Source: Rodentolepis nana
Taxonomy: Eukaryota; Platyhelminthes; Cestoda; Cyclophyllidea; Hymenolepididae
DNA: 13,007 bases
Direction of reading: 5' to 3'
Assembly: GCA_900617975.1 (NCBI GenBank)
Contig: UZAE01001499.1
Location: forward strand, 1 to 13,007
In this document: positions 99 to 3,000 of the stretch, piece after piece
Numbering within the stretch: the first letter of the stretch is position 1
Layout of the letters: each line of letters opens with the position of its first letter
Notes under the pieces: model-generated
The model's input: the letters and a program-made list of their open reading frames with translations, nothing else
What the model was told of the DNA's origin: nothing
Database searches by the model: none
Position numbers and translations under genes: made by a program

Positions 99-3000
99 GT
101 TTGTGCTTTTCTATTTGAAAATTATTCTTTTTTTTCCTTGACGGAAGCCAATGAATGCGAAAAAATTGTGATTATCAGGGGAGCATAATTCATCCACCCA
201 CTTTTCCACCTTTGCATGTTTTGCACTGAGTTTAGTCTTGTAATAGCGATCATTTATTTATTTATTTATTTCAAATGGCAGGCGTTTTGATAATTATCAT
301 TAGGCCATTAGCTGACTTTGGGCTTTACAGAGGGGAGAAACATCAAAGTGAGAAAATTCGAGAGGGATAAAAGAAGAGTGATCCACAGATGTGAAAGAGA
401 CAGACAGACATAGAGGCAGAGAAAAGGTGAGGTGAGTACTATGGAAGTAGTCGAATATGACACACAGTGGAGTGATGGTAGTCTGAAGCCAGAAGTCAAC
501 TGCCGATTAATAGAATTTTCTGCCGTATGAGTATACGTTGCCCGGGGTGCACCACGTGGAGGTAAGTCTATCGCACACCCCCGTAATAGCGATCATGGGA
601 CCTTTCTAAATGTGTCAAATTTAAATTATCAGTGAAATATGTTGTTTTTTTAATAGAACACGCCTTAATTTTTGCATTGAGTGCACAATTTAAACTCTCC
701 TTGTACTCCTGTAGCCAGTTCGTACATTTTTCATATTCAAAATAAAATAATACCTGCAGCGATTAGACATATCAAATAATTACCCTTTTAACGTTATTTA
801 TTTATTTTTATATCCTTTAACTCTGAATTATTTTTATGAATAATGCACCCAACCGCACTCACATGTGTCTCATAGCAGACTGATGCCACCGACGTGATGA
901 GTTTCGGTGGTGTATTAGATGACGGCCATAAACGCATTGAATCTGTTTCAAACGGCAATAGCGCCTTCTGTTATGAGTCTATTGCCAATTCGGGGTATTT
1001 TTAAGGGTGTTAAGGGTTAATAGAGGGTGTGTGAACATTATCAGTCAAAGCATATGATAAACTGTTTCGTGGAGCATAAATTGATCCCGCATATTCGCTA
1101 TGAGTAAAGCCCAAAATGTGCTTTAAGATTATCGAACTTCACTTAAAGAGTTTCCATCTTTAAAACCTTTTTTCTCAATTCTTAACATTCACCAAAATAG
1201 TAAATGTGGGGGTATTATATCTATAATGTGGGGAAAAGAATACCCCTACTCTACTGCTTTGCCGTATTGTACATACCCCCCCCCCCGCCAAGCTATTCAA
1301 TTAATCGCTTGGAATTAGCATAAAGGTTATAGACGGCTTCTACCATAGATTCCCCTCCTCGTCGGCACCGAATGGACTACGTTAGTTTGCAAGCGCATGC
1401 CAATTTTGCATGCGCATGTGTGTGCGCGTAATTCCACTCGCTTCATGTGTCTTTTTCGTGATCACTGCTACACCTCGTGTGTGTGTCTCTGCCCTGATGG
1501 ACTTTATCAACACACCCTGAATTGGATTTGCACACACTACAATGATATTGAAATGCCGATCGTAGACTTTTAAAGGGCGTGGGCCAAAAGAAATGGAAAG
1601 ATTTCATTTGAGCCATTAGTGTTGCACGTGTTAGTACAGGAGCCTTTTAAATGCTTCAGCTTTTGGGAAATCATCCGAATAAAGGCGAATGAGGCGGAAA
1701 ATGGATCAGAAGGAGACTGGCTACTAAATCATTAAATCAAGAATGTCGCTTTGTACATTTATGTCCATTTTCACACCGATTACTGTCAAAGTCACAATTG
1801 GACTCTCCGATTATCTCCGCGGTAGGCAGAGATTGTTGCCCGATTAATTGATTTTGTGGGGTTAAGGCACCTCATTTTGCAGCCGAACAACTGCATTGTG
1901 ACATAACATAGCGCACTAGGATTTACGTACCCTGACCACTATTCATTTTTTTTTCTAAGACTGATTAATTATTACTTGTTTTAATACCACGGCTTTCAGC
2001 GCATCATTTGGGCCAACTTGAAGATTGCATCTATCGTTGAGCCTTTTGCTTAGCAATGGGTTTGCCTCGATTCCCATCAAACTCTTTTCTATCCAATCTC
2101 TGCTTGAGAAAGCACTTTTAAGTCAGTGTCATGAAAAAAGATTAATTTACAGGCGATTTACAGGGAAGTATACTGTTGTTTCCTCTCATAAAATGCGCAA
2201 AAAGGCCACATCATCTCTATTTTCGAAGCTTAAATTTCCAATTGCGAACGATAAAACGTTTGATCAAATGTGATCGCATATTTCCCATCTTCAATTTATT
2301 ATTATTATTTTTGTTTTCTAGTGGGAATTTTGATGACAACATTACACGATTCATTGTGGCGAGTGTTCTCGAAGCTTTCACTTATCTTCACACCAATCAC
2401 ATCATTTACCGCGATCTGAAACCAGAGAATTTGCTGCTTGATCATCGGGGCTATATCAAACTGGTAAGACAATTAAAATATGTGCATTATTAGTGCAATA
2501 ATATAAACAATAATTAATTTTCCAATGATCCGAATTTATCTAGTTTTATTTTTTTTGTCTCTTTTCAAGATATTGCCCTTTTTAGTCGCTTTAATGTAAT
2601 TAATTTTATTAATTAATCGCTAATGGTTCTTTATTAAGTTTAAGCCTTTTTATAAATGTATATTAAATAGAATGAGCTAATAGTGTTTCATAATTATGTT
2701 AAATTGTTCTGAGTCCTTTTTTTGTAAAACCCCACCGATTCTAGCCTTTAGCTCTGATATTATATTACTAAAGATTATTAGTAATATCTCATTCCCTTAA
2801 AACCCGCTATCAAGGTGCAACGTTAAGTCACGTTTAGTGAGATATGCTCCCATTTCAATTTCTAACCACACTAAATTTTAGTCCCCAATTTAACTATAAA
2901 CCTCATGTTCGGTGACATTTTATGAATGGGTTCTGAACAAAACATGTATGGCATGTAATTAATGCCATTTAAAATTTAACTTAAATCACTCATAACCATG

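Follow-up and report, generated by a model that had tools for sequence, protein, structure and literature searches.

On the minus strand of the window, by which we mean the whole 13,007-nucleotide stretch of Rodentolepis nana DNA analysed here, lies a non-coding, non-autonomous retroelement of the SIDE/NARTc type whose 5' head is an HDV-like ribozyme. The element very probably derives from a LINE, with predicted self-cleavage of the head freeing its RNA for LINE-driven retrotransposition. The ribozyme structure, an insertion boundary at the first nucleotide (G1), ends common to the element and a LINE, and constraint at the level of the source copies were all demonstrated in this analysis.

BLAST comparison with other copies, together with a duplication at both ends, placed the whole element copy at 254..581 (minus strand). 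Its G1 is at 581, where the family consensus starts, and element position p corresponds to window position 582-p. The tail, made of AAAT-type repeats, ends at 254. The 14-nt target-site duplication was as perfect as the sequence-only reading had claimed, its 5' copy at 583..596 being exactly repeated by the 3' copy at 240..253. A single extra G at 582, evident from the copy alignment and the end of the duplication, separates the duplication from the element, and the predicted cleavage site lies between 582 and 581. Three further copies of the element were found in the window, at 6458-6134 (-), 9265-9062 (-) and 11423-11750 (+), the second of which has no 3' part. A protein kinase exon (Pfam Pkinase) was located at 2323-2463 (+), with the ribozyme-headed element upstream on the opposite strand.

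HDV-like ribozymes are defined, according to PMC3774820, by five helices (P1, P2, P3, P1.1 and P4) that form a nested double pseudoknot. All five were present in the right order on the minus strand at window 581-510, in agreement with the sequence-only reading; of the span it had given, 509..582, the HDV-like fold stood, but G582 falls outside, the consensus G1 being 581. The 72-nt ribozyme (510..581) was delimited by its Rfam alignment and by a descriptor match at 581. In 5' to 3' order, it consists of the 5' strand of P1 (575..581), a 3-nt joint, the 5' strand of P2 (564..571), P3 (551..563; 3 bp, 563-561/553-551) around the L3 sequence UCCACGU (554-560), the 3' strand of P1 (544..550), a GG (542..543), P4 (524..537; 5 bp, 537-533/528-524, with the 4-nt loop ACUC), GC and the 3' strand of P2 (510..517). 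From the sequence, the GG is proposed to pair with the CC of L3 as P1.1, which we take to be the role it has in HDV. HDV-like ribozymes carry a catalytic C after P4, and the C at 522 (element position 60) occupies that place; once heads containing over 6 gaps had been dropped, all 61 copies that could be read at this position had a C. In the consensus, P2 comprises 8 perfect pairs, AUAGACUU/AAGUCUAU, one of which is lost in the window copy, where C566 lies opposite a G>T change at 515; the first pair of P1 is G-C in the window copy and G.U in the consensus. With this one broken P2 pair, the window copy fits the descriptor, and the five helices that define the class are accounted for.

In the Rfam covariance-model search that the sequence-only reading had proposed, HDV-F-prausnitzii (RF02682) aligned with the window copy from end to end at 41.7 bits, with an E value of 1.8e-6 in a search of 461 bases against 4227 families, slightly below its gathering score of 44. 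The HDV ribozyme model (RF00094) reached 28.6 bits against a gathering score of 50, and no Rfam family matched the window at gathering scores. The window copy shares with both families the helix order, the 3-bp P3, L3, the GGCAAC segment and the GGC after P4, and differs from them in scoring below both cut-offs and in its location within a retroelement. As P2 is left unpaired in the Rfam structure line, which covers only P1, P3 and P4, it constitutes a separate check. Six copies in 19 other loci passed the gathering score. Genome-wide, 37 of the 59 reported RF02682 matches did so (61 of 25,212 candidates were scored), whereas none of 14 control genomes had a match. Of these 59 places, 20 were read for divergent ribozymes elsewhere in the genome, and all 20 were copies of the same element.

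The insertion boundary was examined in copies that reach position 300 with both flanks present. Both flanks were available for 94 matches extending to the 3' end, of which 58 start at consensus position 4 or earlier, and the remaining 36 include LINE 3' ends and fragments. An exact duplication of at least 10 nt flanked 24 of the 58 full-length copies, compared with 0.39% of mismatched flank pairs; at 8 nt or more the figures were 28 of 58 and 2.5%, leaving 30 of 58 with no exact duplication of at least 8 nt. The duplication ended exactly at G1 in 16 of the 24 cases, namely 15 as listed and L034:897, for which an alignment start at position 2 was allowed. Four others overlap the first G or two, three leave one extra base and one leaves three. 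Because the duplications end at G1 in 16 of 24 copies, the insertion boundary coincides with the predicted cleavage site. The window copy, with its extra G, is among the three with one extra base, so the earlier claim that cleavage site and insertion end coincide within one G was upheld. Two pairs of copies, L012:4995 with L012:8970 and one in L005 with one in L006, share their 5' flank, which suggests either a local duplication or duplicate contigs in the assembly.

Several orphan matches to the 3' end of the element were traced to a LINE whose 3' end they form and which carries both a cysteine/histidine motif and an RNase H region. In L034, L035 and L036, the ribozyme also heads this LINE, at 89-90% identity over consensus positions 1-81, and the shared tail closes it; inspection by eye found duplications of 12-14 nt ending at G1 around these three copies. 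The LINE loci L058 and L059 also have the head, at 85-88% identity, and the Rfam scores of the five LINE heads (32.2-37.9) all fell below the cut-off. An ATG follows G1 by 104 nt in L035, L036 and L058, and in L034 what follows the head is later coding sequence. The domains identified in the LINE were an endonuclease (PF14529 and PF03372, in L058), RVT_1 (L032) and RNase_H (L031 and L035). For its reverse transcriptase, identity to a Rodentolepis nana protein was 90% across 69% of the length, and identity to one from Hymenolepis microstoma was 70% across 99%. The exact LINE-type ribozyme occurs 27 times in the genome, and for at least six of these occurrences an endonuclease match (among the 150 of 380 candidates listed) follows at a distance of exactly 408 bp. 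The loci L057-L059 had been picked by their endonuclease as possible other LINE families and turned out to encode the same one. The 3' end of the partner LINE also occurs twice in the window in decayed form, at 8190-7503 (-) and 10909-10488 (-), the first with an RNase H match.

Comparison of the element with this LINE showed that positions 1 to about 105 and about 240 to 312 are LINE-like, and that positions 106-240 have no match. In the window copy, these correspond to a part resembling the LINE 5' UTR at 477..581 and a part resembling the LINE 3' UTR at 254..330, the limits of the latter being approximate. The possibility that the middle is also a LINE remnant was rejected, as only weak matches were obtained, the best with an E value of 0.026 and on the opposite strand. 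The shared 3' end suggests that the element may be mobilised by the LINE protein.

Conservation was analysed in 60 copies spanning at least positions 3 to 300, with duplicates and the Rfam-chosen loci L037-L056 left out. Since 26 of the 60 were anchors, chosen for their likeness to the window copy, the other 34 were also analysed separately. Sites at which the second base reaches 15% were counted as shared, source-level variants. In the 60 copies, none of the 72 ribozyme positions was such a site, compared with 31 of the 240 that follow (Fisher p 0.0002); with CpG left out, the comparison became 0 of 64 against 25 of 230 (p 0.002). In the 34 non-anchor copies, the counts were 2 of 72 against 32 of 240 (p 0.009), and with a 20% cut-off 0 of 72 against 21 of 240 (p 0.006). 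Rare variants, taken as marks of decay after insertion, were equally frequent in ribozyme and body (5.2% and 5.25% in the 60 copies; 6.5% and 6.2% in the 34). The source copies kept the ribozyme while the body drifted, and single copies decay freely.

The head might be kept for another duty, as a promoter starting at G1 in both the element and the LINE, a protein-binding site or a translation leader, with cleavage not used or no longer used; source-level conservation would be expected of a promoter or binding site too. The Pr77 heads of trypanosomatids reportedly combine promoter and ribozyme, and the LINE frame opens about 105 nt after G1. Such a duty nevertheless leaves unexplained why a full set of five HDV helices, the 8-bp P2 included, should stop precisely at the insertion boundary, and we regard it as an improbable substitute for a cleaving head.

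The sequence-only reading had called the element a SINE, a label that did not hold in the strict Pol III sense. The size, the copy number and the lack of an ORF would suit a classical Pol III SINE whose 5' part happens to resemble the HDV fold, as would words with one mismatch each to the A box (consensus positions 57 and 269) and to a short B box (291). However, no exact A or B box was found in the consensus, which contains internal T runs (TTTT at 157 and 186, TTTTT at 226); no tRNA was found in the window, and both ends match the LINE. A classical SINE was thus disfavoured on boxes, T runs and the window tRNA search, and is very unlikely. Elsewhere, a tRNA-like gene (47.5 bits in Rfam) at L003:1811-1882 (-) ends 28 bp upstream of a same-strand copy of the element. 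The sequence instead indicates a SIDE/NARTc-like element, with two LINE ends around an unmatched middle: it has both LINE ends and no ORF, and its target-site duplications are LINE-like (24 of 58 copies have one of at least 10 nt, and those of the LINE measure 12-14 nt by eye). According to PMC3414825, the name SIDE is used because such elements are not transcribed by Pol III, and in PMC4035085 NARTc-type elements are counted among SINEs in the wide sense.

The closest parallels in design are the R2 SIDEs and R2/R1 hybrid SIDEs of Drosophila, which also have a 5' HDV-like ribozyme, a LINE 3' end and no ORF (PMC3414825). They are thought to depend on co-transcription and a LINE protein, as is proposed here for the tapeworm element, and the hybrid SIDEs have 14-bp duplications, as the window copy does. 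In contrast, the Drosophila elements occupy rDNA target sites whereas the tapeworm copies have many different flanks, and SIDE ribozymes, those of R2 SIDEs among them, have been shown to cleave (PMC3414825) whereas cleavage by the tapeworm ribozyme is predicted. The partner LINE also differs, having an EEP-type endonuclease and RNase H. The NARTc/SIDER elements associated with L1Tc/ingi in trypanosomatids are likewise dispersed and non-autonomous and share the ribozyme-bearing 5' end of their LINE; the partner LINEs encode endonuclease, RT and RNase H, as the tapeworm LINE does, and many, but not all, of the element heads have been shown to cleave (PMC4035085). The tapeworm represents another lineage, likened to these by design. 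A Schmidtea R2 sequence was used in PMC3774820, which means that R2 heads from flatworms had already been studied. No element of this kind in any tapeworm was described in the titles and abstracts of the open-licence papers listed in literature searches. One paper on R2 in animals (PMC5035012) reportedly mentions platyhelminths and an HDV-like ribozyme.

The fold was also searched for with a strict descriptor, in which a 7-bp P1 beginning with G had to be accompanied by P2, P3, the CC.CG loop, GG and P4, with a C following P4. It gave 37 matches in 565,048 bases (both strands of the window and L002-L059), all 37 at element heads and 35 of them exactly at the consensus G1. The LINE copies in L034, L035, L036 and L058 fitted it as the window copy did, and the LINE head in L059 did not. 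Among real full-length heads, 20 of 60 fitted, and 22 of 60 looked intact under a looser rule tolerating a single broken pair in P2 and another in P4. Since the strict descriptor fits only 20 of 60 heads, many element copies are probably dead. In the controls, no match was found in 2,260,192 Markov-1 bases or in 12,000 shuffled heads. Covariation, assessed on copies selected as for the conservation analysis, argued neither for nor against the ribozyme, because shared variation within it is almost absent: among 500 shuffles, the observed pairing was reached by 175 for P1, 134 for P2, 500 for P3 and 12 for P4, which amounts to no excess of paired changes in the first three and a slight one in P4. 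Although the window copy scores below the Rfam cut-off and covariation is of no help, a chance fold in a repeat was rejected as most improbable in view of these empty controls, the Rfam E value, the boundary and the constraint, as the sequence-only reading had argued.

The abundance of the element was estimated in two ways. Across 107 Mb, exact matches to a 35-place core pattern numbered 3,292, and its reversed form had none; as 5 of the 34 full-length copies outside the choice of loci fit this pattern, extrapolation gives about 22,000 copies, a rough figure. The density of heads (28 in 189,492 bp after removal of 20 anchors) gives about 16,000, which is also rough, the loci having been chosen around other copies. 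The copy number is thus roughly 1-2 x 10^4. The exact 72-nt ribozyme consensus occurs 292 times in the genome. At least two subfamilies are apparent from changes or deletions in the body, those common by eye to L039, L040, L047 and L054 setting these copies apart from L041, L043, L045, L046, L049 and L051. Heads in tandem, spaced by about 82-90 bp, were seen in G000 on contigs C20 (53440-54189), C26 (47242-47358) and C73 (40540-40656), and copies in L044 and L053 have parts of the head repeated internally. One examined locus, L029, is mitochondrial cox1, with 7 in-frame TGA codons and open under the flatworm code. Among the best 120 of 7,995 matches to it, the nearest named record was Pseudanoplocephala crawfordi (86%), with other tapeworms next; together with the identities of the LINE reverse transcriptase, this makes a cyclophyllidean tapeworm close to the hymenolepidids the most likely host.

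In the life cycle that we propose, a copy would be transcribed within a longer host RNA. Judging from structure and junctions, the ribozyme would then fold and cut just 5' of G1, freeing an RNA with an exact 5' end. The shared ends and similar duplications suggest that the LINE protein would recognise the common 3' end and copy the RNA at a nicked target. The junctions show that new copies start at G1, by which the ribozyme would be retained. A tapeworm would thereby be added to the hosts of the R2-SIDE/NARTc design, in which a putative self-cutting head could free a short element from any transcript and the tail is common with a LINE; here some ten thousand copies lie dispersed. As a natural series, the numerous copies flanked by insertion-site duplications would allow ribozyme integrity to be compared with copying success. 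With 292 exact consensus copies and 3,292 exact core-pattern matches, it is conceivable, though we hold it only tentatively, that hundreds to thousands of catalytically competent HDV-like ribozymes lie among the genes, and that self-cutting of host transcripts occurs genome-wide and is tolerated, purged by orientation or used in regulation. How genes cope with potential RNA-cutting sites in such numbers is a question that the finding raises.
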